In this document: piece after piece, positions 22,506 to 63,979 of the stretch
Layout: each line of letters begins with the position of its first letter
Numbering within the stretch: the first letter of the stretch is position 1
NCBI RefSeq assembly: GCF_003610465.1
Contig: NZ_RAQI01000004.1
Coordinates: forward strand, 124,001-188,000
Direction: 5' to 3'
Length of the DNA stretch: 64,000 nt
Origin: Xenorhabdus ehlersii
Lineage (GTDB): Bacteria; Pseudomonadota; Gammaproteobacteria; Enterobacterales; Enterobacteriaceae
Made by a program: the position numbers and the translations under genes
The notes under the pieces: generated by a model
What the model was told of the DNA's origin: nothing
Seen by the model: only the letters and a program-made list of their open reading frames with translations
Databases searched by the model: none

Positions 22506-25500
22506 TTATTCTTTACAGATAACGTAATCATAGACTTTATCACTGACAACATGTTCAAATCCTTCGTTTATATTCACAACGTAATGTTCATCTTTCCCTT
22601 TTTCGTCTTTCCCTATCGTTGCAGAACGATAGGAGCGACGTTCAGGCCAACCAAGTTGGTCATGCATTGCATTGTTTGGATGGACCCGGTACAGAGCCAT
22701 CAAATCTTCTTTTGTTGGCAACTTGCTATGTATTTTCTTACAGTACCATGCGGCTCCTGTTGCGTGACGGCGTGGCCATATTTCGCCATCTTCGGTATAA
22801 GTGTCCTGTCCGAATAAATGATTAGCCATTAGTTCTGCTTGCAATCGAGGGCGCTTAAAGATAACGCCATTTTCAGCCACTACGGTATCAGGCATATGCC
22901 CCCAAAAATTAGCTACGGGAACGTCTGGGCTGGTAGCCACAGTAAAAATGACATCTTTAGTTTGTGAGGCCGCAATACCGTCCACTGAGATAGATAATGT
23001 CGTCTTCACGCCAAGCCCGTTCGGATCGGTCACGGCAATAGACAAAACACCTTGATCGTCCGTGAAACCTTGGTACGTACCTGATTTGCCTCTCAGTAAA
23101 GCCGTGATTTTCTCAGTAACATTCTGACGATTCAGTGACTTGATGGCGTTAACTCTGACTGCGACATTTTGGGCTGGCTGTTCGTGATTTAGCGTTTTGA
23201 TTTTCAGTATGATCGGTTCATGGTTTTTAACCTTATCAGCGCTTACTGTGATCGTCATATCGTCGGCTAGCCCTCTGACAGTACCCCCTTTTCCACCATC
23301 ATGGGTATGGTTTCCTTGATCGGCACTCATGCTGGTATCAACGCTCTGTGTATTGCCGATACGATCCATCGCATTTTTTGCCTGAACAGCAATCTCTTTC
23401 ACCCTACCCGCATCTGACAGTGTCAATGTATAGTCGGGGATCTTGCCTGATTCTGTTATTGTATGGCCTTTGGTTATGTCAATATTGCCCTTATTGCCCC
23501 AGACATAGATTGATTTATCCGTTGGGTCGCCATGATTAGGATTAAAGGTATAGGTTGCGCTTAATTTCTGGCCCATCTCCAATTTGCCAGCTATGGCTAA
23601 ATTTTTGACGATTGGCGCCTCAGGATGTACGAACATGATCTCGACGGGCTTGATGATAATACCCTCTACTTCTGGAGTGATTTTCAGTACCCCGCTCTTT
23701 TCGCCAGCAGTGAGTTTAGATTCATAGATACCCGGTTGGACTTCTTTCATTTTATCGATCTTGGGATCACTGCCATTTCCACTTAATCCACTTGAGACCA
23801 ATTTGATGTCTGAGGCAGCTCCGCGTATAGGTTTGTCATCTTTATCTTTCAGAGTTAATGTCAGGAGGGTAGTGACATGACCATCAGCCAGAAGCTCTTT
23901 GTCTTTTGCTGAGAAGGTGGATTTATTAGCATTAACTACAGCGGGAAGCACTTGTACTTTTACTTCAGCCCGTTTGGATGTATTGCCGTGCTCATCGTAA
24001 GCAATAGCTCCCACCGTGTAGGTATTGTTGCCCTGAGATTGATATTTGGGCAAGGTCAATAGGTAGTGTGTGCTACCTTGGTGTTGGATATTACCTCCAT
24101 TGGCAAAAAAGTCTGCTGCATCCCACTCAATATCTTTAAACCCATATTTGCTGTTGACACTGACATGGAGAGGTTTGGTATCTCTCGCATGACCAATAAT
24201 CAAATTATCTATTGCCAGAGAGATCACTTCACGTTTGCGATATTCCAAAACGATCTGGTTGTTGCGATCAACCAGATCATAGCGGCTGCCTTGCAGAGAG
24301 CGCTTAAATGCTACTGCATCTGGATCAATCTGTTTAGCCCATGGCGTACCAATCTCATAACTCAGTTCGATATTGAACAGGGTTTCCCCACCACCGGACA
24401 TAGCTTGTTTGCGGTCAATACCGAAAGTCAGCAATGGGATAGGCGTGTAATCAACCCCGAAAGTGAAGGCCGAGGGATTTTTCTGGCGATGGTCTTTACT
24501 CATAAGCCCAACTTCATTCCCGAAATATTGCTCATACACCAACTTACCACCGAATTGTGGTAAAGAAGGCAAATAACCTTGTACTTTCAGGTCGAAGCCA
24601 TTGGCGGGGCGCTCATCATAATCGGTCAATAGGCGGGATTCTTTCCAATTACTTAAGCGAATATAGCCGTTAGCCGCTAATTTCAGGTAATTGCGGGCAT
24701 ATTCTGCCCCAAGACCGAGTCGGCTATTATCACCAGTGATATCGTGGTCGAAGAAAGCATTGTAGCCCAGCATCCAATCATCAAAAAAATGACGTTGTCC
24801 AAATCCAATATTGGCGGTATTGCGTTTATCAATATGGCGCAAGCCGAACTGTGTAAAAATCATCTGGTGATAGGTATCATACAGCGGCAGTAACATATCA
24901 AATTGGCTGTCATTCAAATGGCCATGACTATCTATATTAAGCTGTACACGAGCAGTGCCATAGCGTCCCAACCAATTTTGAATTTTCTGATTGGCTTCGC
25001 CCATTGCCAGGCTGTTTAATTGGCTTGCTGCATTATTCTTAATGTCGTCACTGGCTAGTAACTGGCCAATGCGAGAGGAAATCTCAGCCAGATTACTAGA
25101 ATTTTCATCAATAGAAGACTTGTCTTCTTTAAGAGGGACTTTGTCTAATGAGGGTTGTTCTAATGATGATTGTTTTAATAAAGGTTGCTTTGATAAAGAG
25201 ATTTCTGATGAGGAATAGTTAAAAGGTAAAAATTTATTGTTTCGAGGTTTTGGAACATCAATCTCGCTACCCACTCCGAGTGTGATAAAAGGCTTATCAA
25301 AGGTACGCAATTGGTTGATTTTTTTTAAATCAGAGACAGTTAAACCATAACGTTTAGCGACGATTTTGACATTTTCTCCTGATTTCAGGACATAAGGCTC
25401 TGTTGGTAATCCCCATGTTTCATTTTGAAAAGTTGAGAGGGTTTCGGCAGTAGCGATAACGGGAGTGAATGCACCAGCAACGGGAAACGCAAGTTGGGTG

Positions 25501-25577
25501 ACAATGTTCACCCAGGCTACACGTTTCACCAAACTTTGCTTATTATGTAAGCGTGGCTTATCGAATTTTTTGTTCAT
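22506..25577 (-). CDS. Inverse autotransporter adhesin (intimin/invasin family) with LysM
   Basis: Predicted outer-membrane adhesin of 1023 residues (type Ve secretion). An extended signal peptide (about 1-44) precedes a LysM module (about 60-110, YVLKSGENVKIVAKRYGLTV) that would bind peptidoglycan. The linker is Ser/Leu-rich. The intimin-type beta-barrel (about 190-430) has GRYGTARVQLNID and NIGFGQRHFFDDWMLGYNAFFD. Ig-like passenger domains (about 450-900) follow. The C-terminal tip (about 905-1023) has two Cys (AAWYCKK and VICKE) likely forming a disulfide, as in the lectin-like tips of invasins. Unlinked to any operon partner and preceded by a very AT-rich region. The receptor is unknown. 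Confidence 0.9.
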   Translation of the reverse strand: MNKKFDKPRLHNKQSLVKRVAWVNIVTQLAFPVAGAFTPVIATAETLSTFQNETWGLPTEPYVLKSGENVKIVAKRYGLTVSDLKKINQLRTFDKPFITLGVGSEIDVPKPRNNKFLPFNYSSSEISLSKQPLLKQSSLEQPSLDKVPLKEDKSSIDENSSNLAEISSRIGQLLASDDIKNNAASQLNSLAMGEANQKIQNWLGRYGTARVQLNIDSHGHLNDSQFDMLLPLYDTYHQMIFTQFGLRHIDKRNTANIGFGQRHFFDDWMLGYNAFFDHDITGDNSRLGLGAEYARNYLKLAANGYIRLSNWKESRLLTDYDERPANGFDLKVQGYLPSLPQFGGKLVYEQYFGNEVGLMSKDHRQKNPSAFTFGVDYTPIPLLTFGIDRKQAMSGGGETLFNIELSYEIGTPWAKQIDPDAVAFKRSLQGSRYDLVDRNNQIVLEYRKREVISLAIDNLIIGHARDTKPLHVSVNSKYGFKDIEWDAADFFANGGNIQHQGSTHYLLTLPKYQSQGNNTYTVGAIAYDEHGNTSKRAEVKVQVLPAVVNANKSTFSAKDKELLADGHVTTLLTLTLKDKDDKPIRGAASDIKLVSSGLSGNGSDPKIDKMKEVQPGIYESKLTAGEKSGVLKITPEVEGIIIKPVEIMFVHPEAPIVKNLAIAGKLEMGQKLSATYTFNPNHGDPTDKSIYVWGNKGNIDITKGHTITESGKIPDYTLTLSDAGRVKEIAVQAKNAMDRIGNTQSVDTSMSADQGNHTHDGGKGGTVRGLADDMTITVSADKVKNHEPIILKIKTLNHEQPAQNVAVRVNAIKSLNRQNVTEKITALLRGKSGTYQGFTDDQGVLSIAVTDPNGLGVKTTLSISVDGIAASQTKDVIFTVATSPDVPVANFWGHMPDTVVAENGVIFKRPRLQAELMANHLFGQDTYTEDGEIWPRRHATGAAWYCKKIHSKLPTKEDLMALYRVHPNNAMHDQLGWPERRSYRSATIGKDEKGKDEHYVVNINEGFEHVVSDKVYDYVICKE

Positions 25578-48876: not shown

Positions 48877-49284
48877 TCAAACATAATATTCACGTTCAAT
48901 GAAAGTGCCGATGATTTTGTCATGCATTTCAGGTGATTTTGAATAACCGAGTGTTTTACGGTTCAGGCGCTTTATTCGGTTACGTCAGGTTAAGTTTTCG
49001 CGTTCAATACGTTGAGTAAAATATTTTCCAACCAGATGGTTGGCTGAAGGCAGTAAATTATCGGCACGGTAATTATCAGTACACCAAAAGGCTATCTTGA
49101 ATTTAGACAGTTTTTTCAATAACTTTTTCAGCGTTTTCTTGTTTCGTCTACCAAAAGCCTGTGCAATGATACGTTTTAGGCGAGGCTCCCAAGCATACCA
49201 TAACCAACGTTGGCACTTTTTATTCCCGACGAATGACCACATTTCGTCAACTTCACAGATAAACTCAATTTCAACTTCACCCAT
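48877..49284 (-). pseudogene. insB: IS1 transposase InsB, interrupted
   Basis: Catalytic part of the IS1 transposase. The frame contains CEVDEMWSFVGNKKCQRWLWYAW, with the DDE-type Asp, and YFTQRIERENLT, then TGA at 48985-48987, then continues in frame as RNRIKRLNRKTLGYSKSPEM to the natural stop at 48877. The intact enzyme would be made by -1 frameshifting from insA at the A6C run (49314-49320), which is preserved. Confidence 0.8.
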
Positions 49285-49295
49285 TGGTAAGGTCG

Positions 49296-49571
49296 TTACA
49301 CATCGTGGCTGGCGTTTTTTAAAACGCGCACGACAGCATTAATGCTAATATGCAGGGCTCTGGCAGTATCACGGATACCGGCATTGTTCATAGCAAGATC
49401 AACGACTTGTTTTTTTATTCCGGCTTGACAGGCTCGATAAGCATAATCGAGCTGGAAAGTACGATGACAGGATAAACAACGATAACGTTGGTGACCACCT
49501 TTGCCAATACCGTGTTTTTTAACGTCCTTGGTTTGGTGACAAAATCGACATTTTACTTCCACTGTAGCCAT
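49296..49571 (-). CDS. insA: IS1 regulatory protein InsA
   Basis: 91 residues from ATG 49571 (MATVEVKCRFCH), the standard InsA length. Zinc-finger Cys pairs (CRFCH, CLSCH) and a helix-turn-helix (GIRDTARALHISINAVVRVLK) are visible. The frameshift site AAAAAAC for the InsAB fusion lies near its end. InsA binds the IS1 ends and represses transposition. Confidence 0.88.
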   Translation of the reverse strand: MATVEVKCRFCHQTKDVKKHGIGKGGHQRYRCLSCHRTFQLDYAYRACQAGIKKQVVDLAMNNAGIRDTARALHISINAVVRVLKNASHDV

Positions 49572-49608
49572 GTATGTTATCTCGCAAAAAGGGGCATTAT
49601 AGATGAAG

Positions 49609-49648
49609 AAAAGGTCATGATACCAATAAATTGGTATCATGACCTTTT
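49609..49648. repeat. Perfect palindrome at the right end of the IS1 element
   Basis: 18-bp arms AAAAGGTCATGATACCAA / TTGGTATCATGACCTTTT separated by TAAA. It coincides with the outer end of the IS1 copy and would form a strong bidirectional hairpin between insA and cas3, isolating cas3 from transcription through the IS element. Confidence 0.85.
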
Positions 49649-49692: not shown

Positions 49693-49831
49693 ATTGAATG
49701 TTTTGGAATCGATTTTTATGAGATAGAGCAAATTTTGAGATAATTACAGTTCAGCATTTTTAATTTAATTAGCGTAGTATTAAAGATAATAATTTATTCT
49801 TTTAACAATAATCCAATCACATTTGAATAGA

Positions 49832-52511
49832 ATGAATATTACTGTAATACAACGATATTGGGGAAAAGCGCGAAAACTAAAAGCTTTAGAGGGAGATGAA
49901 TATCATCTGTTATCTTTCCACTCTCTGGATGTGGTCAGTGTTGCTGCGTACTGGTGGGATCATAGTCCGGGATTAAGACATCTGTTTTGCATCCATCAAA
50001 ATAGGAATGAACGTGAGGTGAGGGCATGGGTACTCTTTTTTGTCGCCTTACATGATCTGGGTAAATTTGATATCCGCTTTCAATATAAATCCCCACAAAC
50101 ATGGTTATCTTTAAACCCAGAAGATAAACAACCCCGATTACCTTCAATCAAAGAATGTCAAAGTTACGATCATGGCGCCACAGGGCTTTATTGGTTTATT
50201 AATGACTATCAGCCAGAATCATCTGAAGACGATGATGACTTTGAATTTACTGATACAGTACACCTTTATCAGAATTGGTTCTCCTGGATAGAAGCAGTAT
50301 GTGGCCATCATGGCGTTATCAGGCAGAAAAAGGATGTCATCCATTGTGTTGATTATCCGCTGCCATTTTTATTACGTCACCATGCAGCTCGTGATAAACA
50401 AGCCCGGCTAGCCTGGTTGGATATTGCTGCGGAGTTGTTTTTATCGCCAGTGGGTCTTTCGTTACAAGATACTCCACCTGATTGTTCCGTTTTGATGGCT
50501 GGGTTTTGTTCGATAGCGGACTGGCTAGGCTCTTGGTCAACCGGAGATACTTTTAACTACCGCGCTGCTGCTGTCTCTGATGTGGCGGAGTTGCGAGCTT
50601 ATTTCGAACAGCGTTACCAAGAAGATGCTATGCGTGTGGTGACGCGTAGTGGCTTAATAGGTCAGGTGAAACAGGACGCTTCAGTGCAGGCATTACTTGA
50701 TACCGGTTATCAACCTCGGCAAGTACAGACTCTAGTTGATAAACTTTCTGTAGTTTCAGGATTGACACTGATCGAAGCGCCGACAGGTTCTGGTAAAACG
50801 GAAGCTGCACTGGCTTATGCCTGGAAATTATTGGAGCACAATCTGGCTGATAGCATTATCTTTGCATTGCCGACTCAGGCTACGGCTAACGCGATGCTGG
50901 ATCGTATGGACAAGTTAGCGGAAAAAACTCTTCACGGCTCCGAACCTGATTCTTGCTCATGGTAATGCGCGTTTTAATACAACTTTTCAGGCGATCAAAC
51001 AGCGCGGGATTAATCTTCAAGAGGAAGAGGCTTGGAGCCAGTGTTGCGAATGGCTATCGCAGGGGCGGAAACGGGTTTTTTTAGGACAAATCGGGGTTTG
51101 TACTATCGATCAGGTGCTGGTCTCTGTATTGCCGATCCGTCATCGTTTTATCCGTGGCTTTGGTGTTGGCCGCAGTGTGCTGATAATCGATGAGATACAT
51201 GCTTATGATCAATATATGTACGGTTTGCTGGATGCGGTTTTACATAATCAATTGCGTGCCGGAAGCTCTGCAATCTTACTGTCGGCCACCTTACCGCAAA
51301 AACAGAAACAACAGTTATTAAACAGTTATGTTCCCTTACCTGATAACGCTAACAGTGAGCAAGCTGTGGCAGTGGAAGATACGCCTTATCCTCTGGTTAG
51401 CTGGGTTGGAAATGGTGAGACGCAGTTTTTTGACTTGCAAGATCAACCTGAGCAATATCCTACCACATTCTCTCTCCATCTTGAGCCTTATTACACAGAA
51501 GATGCGGTGCCTGATAATTCCTTATTGGAACGTATGGTTGATGCTGCGCGTAAGGGGGCTCAAGTATGTCTGATCTGTAATTTAGTCGATGTGGCTCAAC
51601 AGGCTTGGCGGCAACTAAAAGAGCTAGCGGCGGGCAGGGTTGATGTTATGTTGTTTCATGCCCGTTTTAGCCTGGTGGATCGTCAGGTAAAAGAGAGTGC
51701 TGTACTGAGTTGCTTTGGTAAAGGAGGAAACCGTTGTGATGGGCGTATTTTGGTCGCTACCCAAGTCGTTGAGCAATCCCTTGATGTCGATTTTGACTGG
51801 ATTATCACCCAACACTGTCCGGTAGATCTTTTGTTCCAGCGTCTGGGTAGATTACATCGTCACTGGTGTACGATACGTCCTGAAGATTTTGCACACCCTA
51901 AGGCTGTCGTTCTTTTCCCCATTACCACAGGATATGGACGGTTTGGCAAAATCTATAGTCATACTCGAGTTATGTGGCGTACCCAAAAATGGATTGAAGC
52001 TTTGCAGGGCAAACCACTTTCTTTTCCTGATGCCTACCGCAAGTGGCTTGAGCCTATTTATCGGGAAGATATTTCAGAACCTGAGCCTCAATGGGTGACT
52101 GAAGGTATGAAAGTCTTTGAAGAGAATAATTTCACTCAGCGTATGAAAGCACAGCGAATGGTGGATTGGGCTGAAATAGTTGGATTTCGGGACGTTGAAG
52201 GTAATGAGAGAGCTGTCACTCGTGATGGTGCCATGAGTATTCCTTTGGTGCCTTTTGTTGTGACAGAAGTAGGAAGGCAGTTGTTAGATGGCAGTATTTA
52301 TGAACAACGAGGGGAATTTCAGCGGCAGGAGGTATTAACCCGTAACCAGGTTAATGTCCCTTTGGGATGGAAACAAAAATTGGGTTTAGTTCAGGATAAA
52401 TGGAACAGAGTTTGGCTGGAAGGGAACAACGATATTACCGATTGGGATTGGAGTAGTAAGGATGGCAGATTGCGTTACAGCCATGAACAGGGAATGGTAT
52501 TGGTATTATAA
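49832..52511 (+). CDS. cas3: Type I-E nuclease-helicase Cas3 (reading frame interrupted by +1 A)
   Basis: Degrades DNA unwound by Cascade. The first frame (49832-50965) holds the HD nuclease motifs (FVALHDLGKFD, VCGHHG) and helicase motif I (APTGSGKTEAALAYAW). It ends prematurely after a run of six A at 50922-50927. Removing one A restores AEKLFTAPNLILAHGNARFN and joins the second frame to 52511, with the DExH box IIDEIHAYD, motif III LLSATLP and motif VI QRLGRLHRHW. Total about 890 residues, normal for I-E Cas3. Given the same lesion in essential infB, sequencing error is a real possibility. Confidence 0.92.
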
Positions 52512-52524
52512 CCATCCCCTCTGA

Positions 52525-52605
52525 TAAATCCCAAAAGGGTTTGGGAACTTGAAATGTTATCCATATACAAAATAACGGTTTATCCCTGGCAAGTGCAGGG
52601 AACGC
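52525..52605 (-). ncRNA. Candidate Cascade-guided regulatory RNA (CreA/CreR-like)
   Basis: About 80-nt minus-strand transcript unit. It comprises a single CRISPR-like repeat at its 5' end (52605-52576), a guide starting at 52575 and a hairpin TCCCAAA / TTTGGGA (52546-52529) followed by TTTATC as a weak terminator. A good promoter ends 7 nt before the repeat. The guide starts TTATTTTGTATATG and its first 14 nt match the sequence at 52683-52670 (minus strand) beside an AAG PAM, with mismatches only at positions 6 and 12. Cas6e could process it because the stem and the 3' handle ATAAACCG are intact. Function is inferred from architecture. Confidence 0.72.
52576..52605 (-). repeat. Solitary degenerate CRISPR repeat in the cas3-cse1 gap
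   Basis: Reads on the minus strand as GCGTTCCCTG, a 7-nt loop, CAGGGATAAACCG. The array repeat reads CTGTTCCCCG ... CGGGGATAAACCG. The 3' handle ATAAACCG is identical. The stem has a compensatory change (C-G to T-A) that keeps pairing, which indicates selection for structure. 30 nt versus 29, the extra base in the loop. Confidence 0.85.
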
Positions 52606-52611
52606 TAAGAC

Positions 52612-52639
52612 AGTATACCTTGCGGATTGTAACAGGCAA
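52612..52639 (-). promoter_or_regulatory. Promoter of the solitary-repeat RNA
   Basis: On the minus strand: -35 TTGCCT (52639-52634), 16-bp spacer, -10 TATACT (52617-52612). The expected start site, about 7 nt on, coincides with the first base of the degenerate repeat at 52605. Confidence 0.65.
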
Positions 52640-52651
52640 TAAATTTGATTG

Positions 52652-52686
52652 TCCAAAAAGTAAATATATCACATACATAATAACTT
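52652..52686 (-). promoter_or_regulatory. Predicted Cascade target site in the cse1-operon/38-codon ORF promoter
   Basis: Minus strand: PAM AAG (52686-52684) then a protospacer beginning TTATTATGTATGTG (52683-52670). It pairs with the solitary guide at 12 of the first 14 positions, including all seed positions except 6 and 12. The rest of the protospacer is poorly matched, which would allow binding without Cas3 cleavage. It lies just upstream of or overlapping the likely -35 region for the downstream ORF (TATTAT at 52705-52710 is a possible -10). Confidence 0.65.
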
Positions 52687-52754
52687 GAATTTTTTTGCTA
52701 TTCATATTATTTACCTGTATCTTTAATCCTCTAACTTTTGTGAGGGGTGTAGGA

Positions 52755-52871
52755 ATGAGAGAATTTGTAAAAAATATCAGGTTATTAATCAACGCCATCA
52801 ATTCCGTCACTCCGATGGGAATTGTAATTGCATCCCTTTCGGTGGTGGCATTGGCGTTGCTGTTGAAATAG
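52755..52871 (+). CDS. 38-residue hydrophobic peptide, candidate CreT-like toxin
   Basis: ATG 52755 has a strong ribosome site GAGGGG (52742-52747) 7 nt upstream. The 38 codons encode a basic amphipathic start (MREFVKNIRLLINAIN) and one membrane segment (MGIVIASLSVVALALLL) ending in Lys, the layout of small membrane-active toxins. It lies between cas3 and cse1, 31 bp before cse1, and its promoter region carries the predicted Cascade target. It resembles no protein I can name. It could instead be a leader peptide of the cse1 operon. Confidence 0.6.
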   Translation: MREFVKNIRLLINAINSVTPMGIVIASLSVVALALLLK

Positions 52872-52902
52872 CAAAAATTTTTGGTTAAGGGAGGAAAAGT
52901 TG

Positions 52903-54417
52903 ATGGATTTACTGGTTCATAATTGGATTCCTGTCCGCCCGATGGCAGGGGGAATACCCACCACAATTTCTCTGCAAACATTATTGTGTTCGGACGAACA
53001 ATGGATTTTATGTTTGCCCAGAGATGATATGGAGCTATCTGCTCTCCAGTTGCTGGTTTGTCTCACTCAGGTGATTTGGACACCGCAAGATGATCAGACT
53101 TTGCGCCTGCGTATAAAACAGCCGCTGACATTTGACGACTTCGTTCAGGGAATTTCTGCCTGGAGTGATACTTTTCAGCTTGATCACCCCGATATGCCAT
53201 TTATGCAGTTCAAAGGTGTGTCAGCTAATGACGTGACGAGTATGGATAAGTTGTTAGCTGGATTGACTGGCGCCACCAACTGCACCTTCATTAATGAGCC
53301 GGGGCAAGGGGATGCATTGTGTGGTGGCTGTACCGTTATTGCCTTGTTTAACAAGGCTAATAATGCGCCTAGTTTTGGTGGAGGATTTAAAAGTGGTTTA
53401 CGTGGAGGCGCTCCCGTTACCACTCTATTACAGGCAATAAATAGCCGTTATGCTGATCTACGCACGACGATCTGGTTGAATGTGCTAACACAACCTTATT
53501 TGCAACAATTGTTTAGCAAAGACTTGCAGGCTAAACAATTGCCAGTATGGCAAGAACCGATTCAGGCAGGTGCAACCATTCCTGCGACACATATCGGTTT
53601 ACTAAGAGGGTTGTTCTGGCAACCCAACCATATTGAATTATGCCCCCCAGTGGGAGTTGGTCAGTGCAGCGGTTGCGGACAACAAGCCACACAACGCTAT
53701 ACGGGCTTCCTGAAAGAAAAGTTTAATTTCTCGGTGGAGGGCATATGGCCACATCCCCACTCTCCGCGTGTATTACAGGTAAAACAAGGAGTGGTGGAAG
53801 AGAAATTCCTGGCCTTCACAACCTCTGCACCTTCATGGACACAAATCAGCCGTTTACTGGTCAGCCGTGAAGCGGATAAAAAAGAAGGACATCGCCCTGC
53901 TGCTGTGGTGGATCAAAGCAGAAGCGTGTTTTCCAAGGCTCAGATGCAATTGATTGTGGGTGGTTATCGTAATAATCAGGCGTCAATTTTGGAGCGACGA
54001 CATGATGTGATGGTTGTTAATCAGGGATGGCAAACCCATCCTGAAGTGATTAACGAAGTTGTCGGAATTGGCCTAGGATATAAGACAGCTTTGCGTAAGG
54101 CACTTTACATCTTTGCGGAAGGTATCAAAGAGAATGATATCAAAGGGGCTGGAATACCGGTGCATGAAAAGGGAGAGCGAGAATATTACCGACAGAGTGA
54201 CTTGCTTATCCCTAATTTGTTGGCATCTATCGATTTTACACAGGCAGATGAGTACTTAGAGCAATTGAAGAAAAGTCTAAATAATTTGTGTATTAATCTT
54301 TTTAAACAAATGACCGCACCTTATCGCCATCACCCCAAGCTGGTCAAGGCATTAGCTATTGCCCGCCGTAGCCTACACAAACAACTCACTGCTTTGAGTC
54401 AGCCTCAAGGAGAATAA
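52903..54417 (+). CDS. cse1: Cascade large subunit Cse1 (Cas8e/CasA)
   Basis: Recognises the PAM and recruits Cas3. 504 residues from ATG 52903 with GGGAGG 8 nt upstream. The N-terminal LVHNWIPVRPMAGG is typical. A Cys-rich region (CSGCGQQ near 255) is present, and the C-terminal four-helix bundle occupies about 370-500. The 2-bp gap to cse2 indicates coupling. Divergent in sequence from E. coli CasA, as usual for this subunit. Confidence 0.94.
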   Translation: MDLLVHNWIPVRPMAGGIPTTISLQTLLCSDEQWILCLPRDDMELSALQLLVCLTQVIWTPQDDQTLRLRIKQPLTFDDFVQGISAWSDTFQLDHPDMPFMQFKGVSANDVTSMDKLLAGLTGATNCTFINEPGQGDALCGGCTVIALFNKANNAPSFGGGFKSGLRGGAPVTTLLQAINSRYADLRTTIWLNVLTQPYLQQLFSKDLQAKQLPVWQEPIQAGATIPATHIGLLRGLFWQPNHIELCPPVGVGQCSGCGQQATQRYTGFLKEKFNFSVEGIWPHPHSPRVLQVKQGVVEEKFLAFTTSAPSWTQISRLLVSREADKKEGHRPAAVVDQSRSVFSKAQMQLIVGGYRNNQASILERRHDVMVVNQGWQTHPEVINEVVGIGLGYKTALRKALYIFAEGIKENDIKGAGIPVHEKGEREYYRQSDLLIPNLLASIDFTQADEYLEQLKKSLNNLCINLFKQMTAPYRHHPKLVKALAIARRSLHKQLTALSQPQGE

Positions 54418-54419
54418 AA

Positions 54420-54917
54420 ATGTCGTTTGATTCCGATTTTGATCTACTTGCTCTCTACAAAGCTTGGAAGGAACTGGATAACGGTGCTTGTGCCCAACTT
54501 AGGCGTGTGACTGAACCTGAAAAACTAAGGGATATTCCTGCTTTTTACCGGCTAGTACAACCTTTCGGCTGGAAGGAGGCAGAGAAACAATGGCCATTGC
54601 TCCGTATGGTGTTTTGTCTGAGTGCAGGGAAAGAAGTTATTGAACATACTGAACCGGATGAAGAAAATCCCAAAGGTATTAGTCTGGGTAAGGCGCTGGC
54701 AGATAGTGAGCGTATCAGTGAACGCCGGCTGTACCAAGTGTTGCGTGCGGATTGGCCTAACGATATGGTGCAGTTGCGTCGTTTGCTCATCCATGCTGAA
54801 CCTAAGCTTTACTGGCCAGCGTTGGCCAAGCAATTAATACGGTGGAATCAACATGTTCGCCGTCAGATCTTAGAAGATTTCATACTTGCTCTTCCTCCTA
54901 AAAAGAAAACCGCATAA
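54420..54917 (+). CDS. cse2: Cascade small subunit Cse2 (CasB)
   Basis: All-helical dimer-forming subunit that stabilises the crRNA/target DNA. 165 residues, within the family range. Recognisable features are LRRVTEPEKLRDIPAFYRL and SERRLYQVLRADWPNDMVQLRRLL. Second gene of the cse1 operon, 12 bp before cas7. Confidence 0.94.
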   Translation: MSFDSDFDLLALYKAWKELDNGACAQLRRVTEPEKLRDIPAFYRLVQPFGWKEAEKQWPLLRMVFCLSAGKEVIEHTEPDEENPKGISLGKALADSERISERRLYQVLRADWPNDMVQLRRLLIHAEPKLYWPALAKQLIRWNQHVRRQILEDFILALPPKKKTA

Positions 54918-54929
54918 GGATGTAACATA

Positions 54930-56021
54930 ATGAACAATTTTATTAACTTCCACGTACTAATCTCCCATAGCCCGGCTTGCCTGAACCGTGATGATATGGA
55001 TATGCAAAAAGACGCTATCTTTGGTGGCAAGCGTCGGGTGCGTATTTCCAGCCAAAGTCTTAAACGAGCAATGCGTAAAAGCAACTACTACATGCGACAT
55101 CTGGGGGAGTCGAGTATTCGTACTATTCAACTGGCTGAACTTAGAAATGTTTTACATGAACGTTTGGGAGCACGCTTTGAAACAGCGCTGATTGATCGTT
55201 CACTAGCTCTATTGATAGGAAAAGACATTGATGATGCGAAGGAAATAATTGGGGATGCGGTATTTCCCTGGGTAACAGAAGAAGTCGCCTGGTTCTGTGA
55301 ACAGGTTGCTCAAGCAGATGCTGAAAAACTTGATGCCAAAAAATTGGCAAAGCAACTGAAACCGCATATTGCGGCTATGCGTGCTAATTTACAAAATGGC
55401 GTTGACGTGGCGTTAAGTGGCCGTATGGCGACTAGCGGCCTGATGAGTCAGCTGGGTAAAGTAGATGGTGCTATGTCCATCGCACATGCTATCACTACAC
55501 ATGCTGTGGAATCGGATATTGACTGGTTTTCTGCCGTTGATGATTTAAAAGATCTGGGCTCTGCTCATTTGGGAACTCAGGAATTCTCTGCTGGTGTTTT
55601 CTACCGCTATGCCAGCCTGAATCTTGCGCAATTACAGGAGAATCTGGGGGGGATTGAACGCAGTAAGGTGCTAGATATTGCCGCACATCTGGCGCATATG
55701 TTGGCGACGGAAACACCGAATGCGAAACAACGTACATTCGCGGCGTTTAATCCAGCGGATTTGGTAATCGTCAACTTTTCTGATGTACCAGTGTCTATGG
55801 CCAACGCTTTTGAAACACCTGTCAAAGCAAAACAGGATGGCTATCTCAAACCTTCTATTGAAGCGTTCACAAATTACTGGAACCGTGTTGCCCAAGTGTA
55901 TGGACTAACTGGATCGGCTGCGCAATTCTCTTTGTTGAATACAACGCTTCCGGAAGGTGTTTTGTCCAAATCAGGATTGGAAGAACTGAAGAACTGGATC
56001 CGTAGTAACGGTGAGGGTTAA
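54930..56021 (+). CDS. cas7: Cascade backbone subunit Cas7e (CasC/Cse4)
   Basis: Six copies coat the crRNA and kink it every sixth nucleotide, which is relevant to the guide-target pattern described in this window. 363 residues. [15 protein letters not shown] (about 34-48) is the conserved RNA-binding segment, with [20 protein letters not shown] and the C-terminal [22 protein letters not shown]. Starts 12 bp after cse2. Confidence 0.96.
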
Positions 56022-56023
56022 AT

Positions 56024-56692
56024 ATGGCTTCTTATCTCATATTACGCCTTTCCGGCCCCATGCAGTTTTGGGGGCAGCCCACGTTTGAAGGTATGCGTCC
56101 TACCGCTAATTTTCCCACTCGCAGTGGCTTACTGGGATTGCTTGGGGCGTGTCTTGGGATACGCCGAAATGACAAAGAGTTACTTCAGGCCTTGTCCGAC
56201 AGTGTGCGTTTCGCGGTGCGTTGTGATGATCATAAATTGGGTGATAAGTTTGTGGAGTTGAGCAAAATTACGGATTATCACACCATTAAGGATGCTAGAG
56301 TCGATTACGTTGGTTTGAAAAGCCATGACACCATCCAAACTTGGCGTGAATACCTCTGTGATGCCCATTTTACCGTAGCTGTTTGGTGTTTACCCAACAG
56401 TCATTACAAACTAGTGAATTTAGTCACTTCAGTTCAGAAGCCGTGGTTTACTCCCTATTTGGGAAGACGCAGTTGCCCATTGAGTCATCCACTCTATTTG
56501 GGACAGTGTGAGGCAGATAATCCCCGATTGGCATTAAATCAATTCGGTGGCGGAGGAACTATTTATAGCGAAGAGGCTATCAATCCCAAAGCCCCTCCTT
56601 TACATGTTCGTGATGAGCCTATTATTGCCTTACCACGTCAGTTTTCGACACATGATTGGTTTGTTATTCAGGGAGATTTGCCATGTTCTTAA
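56024..56692 (+). CDS. cas5: Cascade subunit Cas5e (CasD)
   Basis: Caps the 5' handle of the crRNA. 222 residues, RAMP fold starting MASYLILRLSGPMQFWGQ, with the thumb-region segment NFPTRSGLLGLLGACLGI. The last 10 bp overlap cas6e, so the two are translationally coupled. Confidence 0.95.
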   Translation: MASYLILRLSGPMQFWGQPTFEGMRPTANFPTRSGLLGLLGACLGIRRNDKELLQALSDSVRFAVRCDDHKLGDKFVELSKITDYHTIKDARVDYVGLKSHDTIQTWREYLCDAHFTVAVWCLPNSHYKLVNLVTSVQKPWFTPYLGRRSCPLSHPLYLGQCEADNPRLALNQFGGGGTIYSEEAINPKAPPLHVRDEPIIALPRQFSTHDWFVIQGDLPCS

Positions 56693-57282
56693 GCAAAGTC
56701 TGGATTGACTGGCGATGGGCAAAAGATCCCTATCAATTGCATCGGGCTTTGTGGCAACTTTTTCCTCATCGTCCTAATGATGCACGTGATTTTCTCTTTC
56801 GGATTGAGGCTCAACACTTTGGTCGTGGTGCGGAAGCTTTATTGCAATCAGTGCAGGCACCTTCGTCAGCGCAAGCGGCTCAGGTTATCGTGAGTAAACC
56901 TATTCAGTGGTCTATTCCGAATGGTGCCAAGCTACGTTTTAAGTTACGGGCTAATCCGATTAAGACTATTAAAGACGGAGAACAGCGCCGTGATCGCAAC
57001 GGTAAGATCAAAGGTTGCCGAGTACCGCTCATTCATGAGGAGGAACAGTTGCAGTGGTTATCGCGCAAATTAGCAGGAGCGGCGCTGTTATCGACGGCTT
57101 GGGTAACACCGGAGTCCCCAATCTATTTTTACAAAGATGATATTAGGGGAAAAATTCAGCCAATATGTTTTGAAGGGCAAATCATCGTACAGGAAAATGA
57201 ATCCTTTATTACTCTTTTAAGTCAAGGAATTGGTCCGGCTAAAGCTATGGGTTGTGGTTTACTCTCTTTGGGTTTGAGTTAG
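56683..57282 (+). CDS. cas6e: crRNA endonuclease Cas6e (CasE/Cse3)
   Basis: Cuts the repeat RNA at the base of its hairpin to leave the 8-nt 5' handle. 199 residues from ATG 56683 (GGGAGA site). His at residue 20 (YQLHRALW) coincides with the catalytic His of E. coli CasE, and the Gly-rich loop GIGPAKAMGCGLLSL lies near the C-terminus. It is the last cas gene before the array; no cas1 or cas2 follows. Confidence 0.95.
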   Translation: MFLSKVWIDWRWAKDPYQLHRALWQLFPHRPNDARDFLFRIEAQHFGRGAEALLQSVQAPSSAQAAQVIVSKPIQWSIPNGAKLRFKLRANPIKTIKDGEQRRDRNGKIKGCRVPLIHEEEQLQWLSRKLAGAALLSTAWVTPESPIYFYKDDIRGKIQPICFEGQIIVQENESFITLLSQGIGPAKAMGCGLLSLGLS

Positions 57283-57472: not shown

Positions 57473-60400
57473 CTGTTCCCCGTGAGTACGGGGATAAACC
57501 GCCTGCCAGAAAATAAACCTGATAGAAAAAACGCTGTTCCCCGTGAGTACGGGGATAAACCGAAATTAACAGTTAAATCCATAAAATATTGTGTCTGTTC
57601 CCCGTGAGTACGGGGATAAACCGTTCAATGGATGGGAGCTGGATATCAATAGCCGCCTGTTCCCCGTGAGTACGGGGATAAACCATCCTGAGTAAGTTCG
57701 TTGTATTATCGACCTGCCTGTTCCCCGTGAGTACGGGGATAAACCGGGAACTGACAGGTAGGGCGTTGGACTGGGCTGCTGTTCCCCGTGAGTACGGGGA
57801 TAAACCGGCTGAATGCAGAGGAAACAATGGAAAACCAACCTGTTCCCCGTGAGTACGGGGATAAACCGAGATGTATACCATTACCTTCAACAAACAATTT
57901 CTGTTCCCCGTGAGTACGGGGATAAACCAGAGTCGATGTTTATCGTTCATACCTTGAACCGCTGTTCCCCGTGAGTACGGGGATAAACCGAACGTTAATG
58001 CGAGTATTGAAATTTGGCGGAACTGTTCCCCGTGAGTACGGGGATAAACCGCTATTATCTCTTTTGCTCTGTGTGGTTTCGCTCTGTTCCCCGTGAGTAC
58101 GGGGATAAACCGATTCACGGGCTGCCTGTATCGCATACATAGAACTGTTCCCCGTGAGTACGGGGATAAACCGTAGGCGAAAATGTATTGGTATTGGGTT
58201 CCAGTCTGTTCCCCGTGAGTACGGGGATAAACCGCCGGTGTCTGTACCACGGGCCTGCCGTGGCGGCTGTTCCCCGTGAGTACGGGGATAAACCGCATTT
58301 AAATACAGGGCAATTGGACACTGATAGCTGTTCCCCGTGAGTACGGGGATAAACCGAGATTTTAATCATTATTTGTGCTAACGATATACTGTTCCCCGTG
58401 AGTACGGGGATAAACCGTCAGCCCCTTTGTATTTATCAATAACATCATCCTGTTCCCCGTGAGTACGGGGATAAACCGAACACTGCGTCAGACATCCAAA
58501 TTGGATACAGCTGTTCCCCGTGAGTACGGGGATAAACCGACGGTCGAGTCCATGGCGTTACGGGTGTGACACTGTTCCCCGTGAGTACGGGGATAAACCG
58601 GCCGTTGTACAGTGAAAATTGTCTCTGTTGATCTGTTCCCCGTGAGTACGGGGATAAACCGGTGTAATCAGGACGCAATCAATATTGCTATCGCTGTTCC
58701 CCGTGAGTACGGGGATAAACCGGAACGTTATGAATATTAGCGATGCGTGCAACGCCTGTTCCCCGTGAGTACGGGGATAAACCGTTATGCGAATTAAAAT
58801 TTTGTTTGGTGCGTCACTGTTCCCCGTGAGTACGGGGATAAACCGTACAGTTAGCGTAATTCTGACATCCTGACGCACTGTTCCCCGTGAGTACGGGGAT
58901 AAACCGTTGCTATTAACACCACCCAACAAGAACGCATCCTGTTCCCCGTGAGTACGGGGATAAACCGCCCCTTACCGCCAGGTTCTGACTCATGGTTTCC
59001 TGTTCCCCGTGAGTACGGGGATAAACCGCCTTTCCACGTCTTGTCATCAAACTTAATGAACTGTTCCCCGTGAGTACGGGGATAAACCGATGCGGACAGT
59101 ATCATCATGCTGTATCGCGATCTGTTCCCCGTGAGTACGGGGATAAACCGAAAAAGAACTTCCAGTCTAGGTTAGAGAGTCGCTGTTCCCCGTGAGTACG
59201 GGGATAAACCGTAATAAAAATCACCCTCACTCTCTCAGGCGAACTGTTCCCCGTGAGTACGGGGATAAACCGAAATGATGAAACACACATTCTTGGGCTA
59301 TGAGCTGTTCCCCGTGAGTACGGGGATAAACCGGGTGGCAATAAACGCATCAGTATTTTGTTTTACTGTTCCCCGTGAGTACGGGGATAAACCGATCCAT
59401 CGCCACTACGTCCCGAAATATACTGGCTGTTCCCCGTGAGTACGGGGATAAACCGTATTACGTCATATCAAAAGATAATGCCGACGTCTGTTCCCCGTGA
59501 GTACGGGGATAAACCGAGGTTGAAAGTGCTATAAACTTAAAAATTAATGCTGTTCCCCGTGAGTACGGGGATAAACCGATGGGGGAGACGACGGTTATCG
59601 CCAATGCTTACTGTTCCCCGTGAGTACGGGGATAAACCGCAAAAAGAAGAACAACGCTTGAACAGAATTGCCTGTTCCCCGTGAGTACGGGGATAAACCG
59701 CGCAAGAAATGCGAGCAGCGCAGTTGGAAAACCTGTTCCCCGTGAGTACGGGGATAAACCGAATGCAGTCTTATTACATCAGTTGTGGGATGACTGTTCC
59801 CCGTGAGTACGGGGATAAACCGCCAACAACAATGGGACAGATCCCAATAGAACCCTGTTCCCCGTGAGTACGGGGATAAACCGCGGGGCGTCGGTGGTGC
59901 GCATCGCATAGTGGCCTGTTCCCCGTGAGTACGGGGATAAACCGTGTCTGTAAATTTTTCAGATAGTTGCGATTTGCTGTTCCCCGTGAGTACGGGGATA
60001 AACCGGTTTGCTGTTAAAAATCTCATAGAGAAAAACACTGTTCCCCGTGAGTACGGGGATAAACCGCTTTTAAGATAGCCTGCTCTACAAAATCAGCTCT
60101 GTTCCCCGTGAGTACGGGGATAAACCGATGGAACTGCTTATTTAATCCAAAGCGAAATACTGTTCCCCGTGAGTACGGGGATAAACCGCGACAGGAGGCC
60201 ATTGATGCCGTCAAGTCCGGCCTGTTCCCCGTGAGTACGGGGATAAACCGCAAACAAAAAAATCAGTTAATGGTACACCAATCTGTTCCCCGTGAGTACG
60301 GGGATAAACCGCGCGAGGCCGAGAATGTCAGGTCAGGATACCGCTGTTCCCCGTGAGTACGGGGATAAACCGTCACTCTGGGATTTAGTCACGGTCGGCG

Positions 60401-63400
60401 ATGCCTGTTCCCCGTGAGTACGGGGATAAACCGGGTTCCAGCAGGCCCTCGCTGATGGGCATATCCTGTTCCCCGTGAGTACGGGGATAAACCGGCATTT
60501 CGGTAACTGAAAATTAGAAAGAGGCACTGTTCCCCGTGAGTACGGGGATAAACCGGTAATGAATGCCGTTAAATGTACCTAACAGTACTGTTCCCCGTGA
60601 GTACGGGGATAAACCGTCTACAATAAACCTGCTCATTTCTTGGAATATCTGTTCCCCGTGAGTACGGGGATAAACCGTAAATTGGCTGTATCACGAATAT
60701 AAATATTGGCTGTTCCCCGTGAGTACGGGGATAAACCGATAGCTACGAAAGGCGGCTTAGTGATTATGATCTGTTCCCCGTGAGTACGGGGATAAACCGT
60801 TGCTATCAACGCCACCCAGCAAGAAAGCATCCCTGTTCCCCGTGAGTACGGGGATAAACCGGAAGATGAGATAGCCGAAATCATGTGCGGCGCCTGTTCC
60901 CCGTGAGTACGGGGATAAACCGGGGTTCCGTGGTGGACACCCAAAACGACACCGCCTGTTCCCCGTGAGTACGGGGATAAACCGGGGGCAATTCTCTCCT
61001 TTAACTTAACTCCTTGCTGTTCCCCGTGAGTACGGGGATAAACCGCCTACGGTATTTTGCTGAGTTACTACGCTCACCTGTTCCCCGTGAGTACGGGGAT
61101 AAACCAGCAGGGAAAAACGGGCGTTGCCCAAATCAAAGCCTGTTCCCCGTGAGTACGGGGATAAACCGGTGGTACGGAAACTGGACTCTTTTCCCTCGCC
61201 CTGTTCCCCGTGAGTACGGGGATAAACCGCCAACGTTGAGCAGTCACTGGCTCAAGGGGTTCTGTTCCCCGTGAGTACGGGGATAAACCGACTTTGCCTC
61301 GTGGGGCGACGGTCTTTTGGAACTGTTCCCCGTGAGTACGGGGATAAACCGCGCACTTGAGAACGGAGTGGCAAATATCAACACTGTTCCCCGTGAGTAC
61401 GGGGATAAACCGGTCATAATGCTTGTGGGCTATGATTTTGATGACTGTTCCCCGTGAGTACGGGGATAAACCGGTGAAACCGCTGCGGCGGTTATCGGGA
61501 TTGGCCTGTTCCCCGTGAGTACGGGGATAAACCGAAAGCGAATTATTGCCATTCTTCGAATCCATTCTGTTCCCCGTGAGTACGGGGATAAACCGACAAC
61601 TGCAATAAAAAATTATAGGGCTTTAGGCTGTTCCCCGTGAGTACGGGGATAAACCGTCACTAAACATGGCGCTCTTGGGTGAGAAATACTGTTCCCCGTG
61701 AGTACGGGGATAAACCGCCCGCGCGCCAGTTTCGCCAGCTCGCCATAAACTGTTCCCCGTGAGTACGGGGATAAACCGCGCGGTGAGTATAAACAGCTTT
61801 ATAGCCGCGTCTGTTCCCCGTGAGTACGGGGATAAACCGACAGCGACGGAGAGACTACGATGAGTGAGAAACTGTTCCCCGTGAGTACGGGGATAAACCG
61901 GTTATAGAAACTAATGGTTCTGGTTTTATTCGCTGTTCCCCGTGAGTACGGGGATAAACCGGCTGCAAAAATCGCTGCTGATGGTGCAAAGAACTGTTCC
62001 CCGTGAGTACGGGGATAAACCAATAACCCGTAAATCCGGGACTTTTTAATATTCCTGTTCCCCGTGAGTACGGGGATAAACCAATAACCCGTAAATCCGG
62101 GACTTTTTAATATTCCTGTTCCCCGTGAGTACGGGGATAAACCGCGCTACCCGGTGCAATCAATGATCCACAAAAACTGTTCCCCGTGAGTACGGGGATA
62201 AACCGGAAATATGGAGTTTCATCGACAATACTAATACCCTGTTCCCCGTGAGTACGGGGATAAACCGAGCATAGAGTTAGCCGCAGGAAGTGGCTGCTGC
62301 TGTTCCCCGTGAGTACGGGGATAAACCGACAGTAACCCTCGCCATTTCAGGCAGAATTTCCTGTTCCCCGTGAGTACGGGGATAAACCGCATAATTTTTC
62401 ATATACAGATTTTCGCCCTGACTGTTCCCCGTGAGTACGGGGATAAACCGTTTTGCAATTGTGATTTACTGATGCCAATATCCTGTTCCCCGTGAGTACG
62501 GGGATAAACCGCCTGCTCGTAGTTGCGCACGATGCCAACGGAACCTGTTCCCCGTGAGTACGGGGATAAACCGTCAATAACTATTTTCTAAAAATGTAAA
62601 ATTATCTGTTCCCCGTGAGTACGGGGATAAACCGCTCTTCCCGATGGCTACCGTTGGCAATCTATCCCTGTTCCCCGTGAGTACGGGGATAAACCGCTAG
62701 CTGTAATTGCAATTCATCATACGTAGGACTGTTCCCCGTGAGTACGGGGATAAACCGCAGATCGATGGCGAGCCGGGGCTGGAAATAGACTGTTCCCCGT
62801 GAGTACGGGGATAAACCGAAATAAAATACCCATCAATACAGATTGTGAAACTGTTCCCCGTGAGTACGGGGATAAACCGCGATCAGTATTTTTCTAAAAT
62901 GGATGTAGTACCTGTTCCCCGTGAGTACGGGGATAAACCGCGAATCCCCGCCTCCGCTTTTCTGCTTGACGTCTGTTCCCCGTGAGTACGGGGATAAACC
63001 GGTTGACCCTGTCCGGCGGATGTCATGAACAGTCTGTTCCCCGTGAGTACGGGGATAAACCGATAGCGATGGTGACTATGAAACATATGATATTCTGTTC
63101 CCCGTGAGTACGGGGATAAACCGATCTTTTTGAACTTCTTTAATGAAATCCAATGCCTGTTCCCCGTGAGTACGGGGATAAACCGTTGATAAAAAATCAC
63201 CAACCGAAAATAAAGATCTGTTCCCCGTGAGTACGGGGATAAACCGCTCGCACATTTATCATGTCAGCCTTAACTAATCTGTTCCCCGTGAGTACGGGGA
63301 TAAACCGAGACAAATATCTACAGTCCGATAATCATAGAACTGTTCCCCGTGAGTACGGGGATAAACCGAGACAAATATCTACAGTCCGATAATCATAGAA

Positions 63401-63979
63401 CTGTTCCCCGTGAGTACGGGGATAAACCGGAACTGACCGAACGTTATAATGTGCAATATATCTGTTCCCCGTGAGTACGGGGATAAACCGCCGGGGCGCG
63501 GCAAGCTGTCTGGCCTGCTCTGCCTGTTCCCCGTGAGTACGGGGATAAACCGGACATTGACACTAATTGGCTGATTGAGCATCACTGTTCCCCGTGAGTA
63601 TGGGGATAAACCGTTTTTCTACTGCTTCGCAAAGCTTGGCTATATCTGTTCCCCGTGAGTACGGGGATAAACCGGGTTATCCAGTGTTCAAACGTCAACA
63701 GGTGCTCTGTTCCCCGTGAGTACGGGGATAAACCGATGGCATCCTGGATTTTTTTGCGCATCGCTATCTGTTCCCCGTGAGTACGGGGATAAACCGCAAT
63801 AGTAGGAATAAATAACATTGCAAATAAACTGTTCCCCGTGAGTACGGGGATAAACCGAGTCTGTCCTGTCGAGGAAGCGGAATATCACCCTGTTCCCCGT
63901 GAGTACGGGGATAAACCGCCCGTAAACAACCTTTTCGTTTAGCTTTGCTGCTGTTCCCCGTGAGTACGGGGATAAACCT
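57473..63979 (+). CRISPR. Type I-E CRISPR array, 107 repeats and 106 spacers
   Basis: 29-bp repeat beginning CTGTTCCCCGTGAG and ending ACGGGGATAAACCG, with hairpin CCCCGT/ACGGGG. I located each repeat start: 94 spacers are 32 nt and 12 are 33 nt. The last repeat (63951) ends in T instead of G, so the array is complete. Five repeats end in A (57657, 57901, 61078, 61994, 62055), and one has an internal C-to-T change (63585). Two spacers are tandemly duplicated (62023/62084 and 63308/63369). The handle direction shows transcription left to right from the leader. Confidence 0.99.

Follow-up and report, generated by a model that had tools for sequence, protein, structure and literature searches.

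What occupies the gap between cas3 and cse1 in a type I-E CRISPR (clustered regularly interspaced short palindromic repeats) locus of Xenorhabdus ehlersii, and what might it do for the Cascade genes behind it? We addressed this question in a window of 64,000 nucleotides (that is, the whole stretch of DNA analysed, positions 124,001 to 188,000 of contig NZ_RAQI01000004.1), in which the locus runs in the order cas3 (in two frames), a 388-bp gap, cse1, cse2, cas7, cas5, cas6e and the array. An original prediction, made from the letters of the window, had placed in this gap a CreTA- or CreR-like module that serves either as an addiction device or as an autoregulator of the Cascade genes. Comparison of related loci supports such a module, and we consider it probable that the gap holds a unit of CreR/CreTA type in which Cascade, led by a guide RNA, represses one promoter for both a likely toxic membrane peptide and Cascade itself.

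A guide unit and its target between cas3 and cse1

The guide unit lies on the minus strand. Its first element, psiR1 (52576..52604), is the CRISPR-like repeat that had been predicted for this strand, a degenerate type I-E repeat that carries the 8-nt handle ATAAACCG, forms a hairpin immediately ahead of this handle and has the same final 11 bases on the minus strand, GGGATAAACCG, as the array repeat. A 25-nt guide (psiS; 52551..52575) separates it from a second degenerate repeat, psiR2 (52522..52550), which stands directly after the cas3 stop codon. It lacks the handle but retains GTTCCC and a 7-bp stem that closes a 4-nt loop and keeps to the register of the array repeat (−7.8 kcal/mol). Because psiR1 and psiR2 flank one guide, the 'solitary' repeat and the 'weak terminator' described earlier turn out to belong to one mini-CRISPR, the supposed terminator being psiR2. 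Two degenerate repeats are reported to be common in creA genes (PMC8501985), and a mini-CRISPR or degenerate repeat unit beside cas genes is also a feature of CreR. A predicted promoter for the guide RNA, TTGCCT-16-TATACT, was located as anticipated (52612..52639, minus strand); taken alone it means little (the region holds three promoter-like sites, with 1.9 expected in shuffles), and both hexamers recur with identical spacing in X. thuongxuanensis and X. griffiniae. As a side observation, X. kozodoii (L079) carries a further degenerate repeat and a spacer-like stretch ahead of psiR1.

The guide fits a target at 52664..52686 (minus strand) that is flanked by the protospacer-adjacent motif (PAM) AAG at 52684-52686, matching at all ten of positions 1-5 and 7-11, with mismatches at positions 6 and 12. 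The predicted match to a PAM-flanked site thus holds, whereas the predicted distance of about 90 bp does not: from guide start (52575) to target start (52683) the separation is 108 bp, and the target lies 216 bp ahead of cse1. No other AAG site in the 64 kb reaches at least 9/10 seed matches, and shuffles of the guide gave AAG with 10/10 in 0 of 3000 trials (any PAM with 10/10 in 13 of 3000). Ordinary spacers were also considered as repressors and rejected, as the best of 106 spacers reached 8/10 at any AAG site of the gap. A creA with degenerate repeats that partly matches a PAM-flanked region upstream of a small open reading frame (ORF), as found here, is a feature of CreTA.

Guide, target and peptide ORF across related loci

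For comparison we used 23 loci of the window's Cse1 clade, that is, the window, 18 stretches and L003, L005, L006 and L007 (L001 is the same as G017 and L002 the same as G001, each counted once; G917 (L071), whose Cse1 matched only from residue 105, was dropped; L006 ends inside cse1 and is counted among the 12 loci without a module, outside the Cse1 tree). The module (psiR with guide and target) is present in 11 of them: four from Xenorhabdus (the window, X. thuongxuanensis (G001), X. kozodoii (G017) and X. griffiniae (G030)), Pseudomethylobacillus aquaticus (L004, the same as G1145), G101, G114, G223, G242, G1265 and G1192, the last with no cas3 on its contig. Among the genomes compared, G001 is the nearest, with a Cse1 96% identical to that of the window. 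All 11 have a psiR2 with GTTCC and a hairpin, guides are 20-33 nt long, and the psiR1 hairpin precedes the handle in ten.

In each of the 11 loci the site that fits the guide best carries the AAG flank and lies on the same strand as the guide, the seed score being 10/10 in nine and 9/10 in G242 and G1265. Counted along guide positions 1-20, matches number 10, 11, 11, 11, 10, 1, 11, 11, 11, 11, 11, 4, 7, 7, 5, 1, 2, 4, 2 and 3; each of the ten seed positions is therefore matched in 10-11 loci and position 6 in one, and the match fades past 11-15 nt. Without X. thuongxuanensis and X. kozodoii, each seed position is still matched in 8-9 of nine loci. In the Cascade R-loop every sixth base is flipped out, so a position 6 that is free of match is what would be expected. 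A mutational study of haloarchaeal CreA showed a need for positions 1-5 and 7-11 (PMC8501985). Among shuffled guides, AAG with 10/10 arose in 2 of 33,000 trials, and for the two 9/10 loci AAG with at least nine matches arose in 1 of 3000 each.

The guides differ from locus to locus yet fit their own targets. Set against a foreign target, a guide scores 0-8 of ten across genera and 8-10 inside Xenorhabdus, where cross matches are high because the seeds differ by at most two bases (T2/T11 in the window, C2/T11 in X. kozodoii, and C2/C11 in X. thuongxuanensis and X. griffiniae, each locus having the same bases in its own target). Two guide-like AAG sites stand in tandem in three Xenorhabdus loci and one in the window, and such tandem sites may provide a route for stepwise change of guide and target. 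A looser psiR search of the 12 loci without a module (two substitutions, 500 bases) gave a best AAG site of 7/10, and the module label requires at least seven changes on the Cse1 tree. That type I-E loci of beta- and gammaproteobacteria gain and lose the cassette in one piece, guide and target co-evolving, is part of the wider model that we offer tentatively below. As a separate observation, the cassette (52512-52899) differs from that of X. thuongxuanensis more than its flank does, the synonymous divergence between the two being 0.30 in the peptide ORF and 0.105 in cse1, possibly as a result of cassette exchange or fast evolution.

Between target and cse1 lies the predicted 38-codon ORF for a hydrophobic peptide (52755..52871, plus strand). 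A frame of 36-46 codons, part of it encoding a strongly hydrophobic segment, occupies this position in nine of the ten module loci that have all five Cascade genes (the window, X. thuongxuanensis, X. kozodoii, X. griffiniae, G114, G242, G101, G1145 and G1192; full Cascade reading frames were found for seven of the ten, presence in G1145, G1192 and G1265 being judged by tblastn alone) and in 0 of the 12 loci without a module (Fisher 2e-5, kinship ignored). The tenth, G1265, is a single case in which the hydrophobic frame is broken by a stop (judged by eye) and the seed has a mismatch. In the sister pairs G1145/L003 and G1192/G1224 of the tree, module and ORF are jointly present or jointly absent. 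The co-conservation of repeat, guide, target and ORF that would be looked for in a working module is thus seen in these loci, with guides and targets changing together and the ORF accompanying them.

The ORF appears to be maintained as a protein. Across 36 codons, each of the six Xenorhabdus pairs has a non-synonymous divergence (dN, 0.04-0.12) lower than its synonymous divergence (dS, 0.30 to saturated), and on these estimates the peptide is under purifying selection in the genus. Most members share the motif P-x-G-[IV]-A followed by a hydrophobic helix. A structure model has helices at residues 2-16 and 20-37 (mean predicted local distance difference test 88, predicted template modelling score 0.37), and the peptide is predicted to sit in the membrane. 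Profile searches returned 16 clusters at E up to 1 and 63 at E up to 0.1 (7988 candidates scored), E-values that are flattered because query members are among the clusters; the 63 clusters measure 31-121 amino acids, mostly 36-54, and none has a Pfam domain. Pfam and PADLOC searches with eight members, and an NCBIfam search with the window's peptide, gave no name, the only Pfam match being DUF6203 for one member (E 0.12). A plasmid or phage origin was considered and rejected: the gap has no match in plasmids, and Cse1 has no plasmid match at E 1e-50. The family member P0026 had no match in plasmids or phages by tblastn, a search that is weak for 42 amino acids. Short matches to the gap in four other Xenorhabdus genomes (L011-L014) were set aside as chance, since they fall on the starts of apparently unrelated genes and have no psiR in the sense of the gap.

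Of 43 loci in the E. coli-like Cse1 clade, at least four (L046, L050, L061 and L063) combine a psiR with an AAG site matched at 9/10 or 10/10, a lower bound given that the psiR pattern was strict there; by the same strict pattern, none was found in the clade's 21 Xenorhabdus loci. In L046 and L063 an AAG target, a hydrophobic ORF of 26 or 33 codons (spotted by eye, then computed), a hairpin of −20.9 kcal/mol and cse1 follow one another, which makes these two candidates for further CreTA modules with other peptides. L050 has a 53-codon ORF of lower hydrophobicity, and in L061 only a 15-codon ORF was found.

A proposed shared, repressed promoter and competing explanations

The seed-matched AAG target in front of cse1 has the placement typical of CreR, with a promoter that is predicted there: TTGAAT-17-TATTTA (52685..52713, plus strand), a pair with weak scores. 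As G follows the PAM (CTT on the plus strand) in 9 of the 11 module loci, the TTG of the −35-like hexamer overlaps the PAM. The Cascade genes cse1, cse2, cas7, cas5 and cas6e (52900..57282, plus strand; NCBIfam matches) follow the ORF. Since the stretch of the window from ORF to cse1 gave no terminator-like site (the single match, at 52802-52820, falls within the ORF), Cascade likely shares the repressed promoter; the 45 nt past the ORF stop, reaching into cse1, fold at −2.1 to −11.7 kcal/mol in nine loci.

We suggest that the minus strand is transcribed from about 52605 and that Cas6e would cut the transcript at psiR1 and psiR2, whose anatomy is described above, to give a handle-plus-guide RNA. 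Cascade carrying this RNA would bind its match at 52664-52686, where 11-14 nt of pairing are probably enough for binding and too short for Cas3 cutting, and RNA polymerase would be kept off the predicted −35 box that the target abuts. Should Cascade be broken, in short supply, bound up with other CRISPR RNAs (crRNAs) or inhibited by an anti-CRISPR, the promoter would be freed. Repression would return once fresh Cascade had been made; in a cell unable to make working Cascade, the peptide would go on building up, with growth arrest as the likely outcome. Judged by the sequence features of both, the module may act like CreR on cse1-cas6e and like CreTA on the peptide, and the layout, in which the ORF leads to cse1 with no terminator found, suggests that autoregulator and addiction device are combined in one. 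That the peptide is toxic is likely, given its character and the precedent of C. rodentium (PMC12055562). A more far-reaching model, which we put forward tentatively, is that of a one-promoter dead-man's switch, in which mini-CRISPR-guided Cascade represses a single operon of Cascade and a new family of membrane-peptide toxins, so that autoregulation, addiction and suicide upon anti-CRISPR attack are united; derepression would repair itself if working Cascade can be made, and the cell would otherwise be stopped or killed.

What decays in these loci and what stays bears on the proposed guarding of Cascade. In the window cas3 is split over two frames (49823-50965 and 51114-52511; whole span 49823-52511), in contrast to the single frame of 892-895 codons in X. 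thuongxuanensis, X. kozodoii and X. griffiniae G030, and G030 has an array down to two repeats (by eye); guide, target, peptide ORF and Cascade frames are all whole in both the window and G030. In the mouse gut, C. rodentium needs its Cascade genes and not cas3, cas1 or cas2 (PMC12055562), and the decay in the window and G030 agrees with a protection that, as there, covers Cascade and leaves out cas3. In G223 (L086), cse1 is cut after about 205 matched residues with the array directly next to it; 18.5 kb of sequence gave no sign of cse2 to cas6e, no peptide ORF was found, nor a second Cse1 in the genome, and guide and target still match at 10/10. Since the sister locus G084 lacks both module and ORF and has the Cascade genes, G223, a single case, is weak evidence that Cascade is lost only after the toxin. 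Separately, X. kozodoii (L079) has cse1 and cse2 in one open frame of 695 codons.

Several observations weigh against a promoter shared by toxin and Cascade. The association of ORF and module ignores kinship, and most loci without a module have no cas3-cse1 gap that could hold an ORF. Scores for the operon promoter are weak: a score of 8 is attained in three of 11 loci and at 3.8% of random places, and the hexamer pair that attains it in the window, scoring as well as or better than the pair at the PAM, lies 10 bases beyond that pair. The psiR1 of Pseudomethylobacillus, the exception among the 11, has no hairpin fold. Finally, G1265 retains guide, target (9/10) and Cascade genes despite its stop-interrupted peptide frame, and in L061, of the other Cse1 clade, guide and target are accompanied by no more than the 15-codon ORF; in these two loci, repression would not need the peptide.

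The last point is also an argument for the strongest competitor, in which the RNA only autorepresses the Cascade operon, as a CreR would, and the peptide is a translation leader of cse1 or a membrane partner of Cascade. CreR has been reported for type I-E (PMC13131331), and in the betaproteobacterial loci G1145 and G1192 the stop of the ORF coincides with the cse1 start or lies a few bases from it, as in translational coupling. Against it stand the ORF's company with the module (9/10 versus 0/12), the conservation of the peptide family as protein and the toxicity of the equivalent gap ORF in C. rodentium (PMC12055562), and we regard this explanation as unlikely, if one to be taken seriously. 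It is improbable that the transcript rather than the peptide is toxic, as in the CreTA systems of Haloarcula and Acinetobacter: the Acinetobacter CreT, which lies in the cas3-csy1 gap and contains a conserved mini-ORF, does act as RNA (PMC10097628), but here conservation is at the protein level across beta- and gammaproteobacteria, synonymous divergence runs from 0.30 to saturated within Xenorhabdus, and no conserved pair of rare codons was seen by eye in the alignment. The pattern thus favours a peptide over an RNA toxin. A dead array remnant with a chance match, in keeping with the X. griffiniae genome paper, which lists the element at the end of cas3 and terms it a remnant in one strain (PMC11566119), is very improbable and was rejected by the shuffled-guide test, as all 11 loci, whose guides differ, combine AAG with the seed match (2 of 33,000 trials with shuffled guides did so) and the guide-side promoter hexamers are retained in three Xenorhabdus loci.

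Locus setting, known systems and meaning

The locus has the features of type I-E, that is, cse1, cse2, cas7, cas5, cas6e and an array with matching repeats (57473..63979, plus strand; 107 repeats found in the window, 100 of them identical). No cas1 or cas2 was found between cas6e and array in the window or in three Xenorhabdus relatives; the second I-E locus of the X. griffiniae paper, described as without cas1 and cas2, appears to be the same locus (PMC11566119). At the end of cas2 in the other I-E locus, 1aii, the Fig. 8 legend of that paper gives a repeat-spacer-degenerate repeat unit, which could be a further guide unit (PMC11566119). Directly before cas3, at 48985-49640, two minus-strand frames match IS1-family transposase, one above and one below the NCBIfam cut-off. 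At 22506-25577, a minus-strand ORF of 1023 codons resembles, by eye, what we take to be an intimin/invasin-type surface protein.

The closest described system is the type I-E CreTA of C. rodentium, whose CreT, a Cascade-repressed ORF between cas3 and casA that must be translated, arrests growth and accounts for the need for Cascade genes in the mouse gut (PMC12055562). Both systems have a small gap ORF, a crRNA-like guide on the opposite strand and a partly matching, PAM-flanked target at a promoter, and in both Cascade, here by prediction, is guarded and cas3 is not. They differ in that C. rodentium has a 96-bp ORF without named relatives, the PAM ATG and a target over an UP element (PMC12055562). 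In the module described here the PAM is AAG, the target abuts the predicted −35 box, the peptides form a family of 36-46 codons with a predicted place in the membrane, and the ORF runs on to cse1 with no terminator found. The precedent makes our module less novel and raises the odds that its peptide is a toxin. With the CreTA systems of Acinetobacter (type I-F) and haloarchaea it shares two degenerate repeats and a partial match (PMC10097628, PMC8501985); the haloarchaeal system uses the same ten seed positions (PMC8501985), and the Acinetobacter one likewise sits between cas3 and csy1 with an ORF divergent from creA (PMC10097628). Their toxins are RNAs (PMC10097628, PMC8501985), whereas the ORF here is conserved as protein.

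CreR, a cas-regulating RNA of types I-B, I-E and V-A (PMC13131331, PMC12737573), is described as generally uncoupled from toxin genes (PMC12737573), whereas here a conserved peptide ORF is first in the operon predicted to be repressed. In CrePA, too, a protein toxin is repressed by a CRISPR effector with a crRNA-like RNA, although CreP, whose action is on cell division, usually carries a KilA-N domain (PMC12737573) and our peptide matches no Pfam family; membership in CrePA by the KilA-N domain was rejected, the peptide and seven relatives having no Pfam match above chance. In the open-licence literature we found no description of the peptide family or of a Cascade-repressed Cascade operon that begins with a peptide; a 2023 CreR paper that possibly mentions related loci lies outside that scope.

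If the proposed module is real, two separately described uses of crRNA-like RNAs (that is, autoregulation of cas genes and control of a toxin) would be joined on one promoter, and the 63 protein clusters without a Pfam domain would become candidate Cascade-guarded toxins. Guides and targets that co-evolve from locus to locus would provide natural series from which every change in the seed can be read off. The module would also predict that decay is allowed for cas3, cas1-cas2 and the array and not for Cascade, as the window and X. griffiniae suggest.
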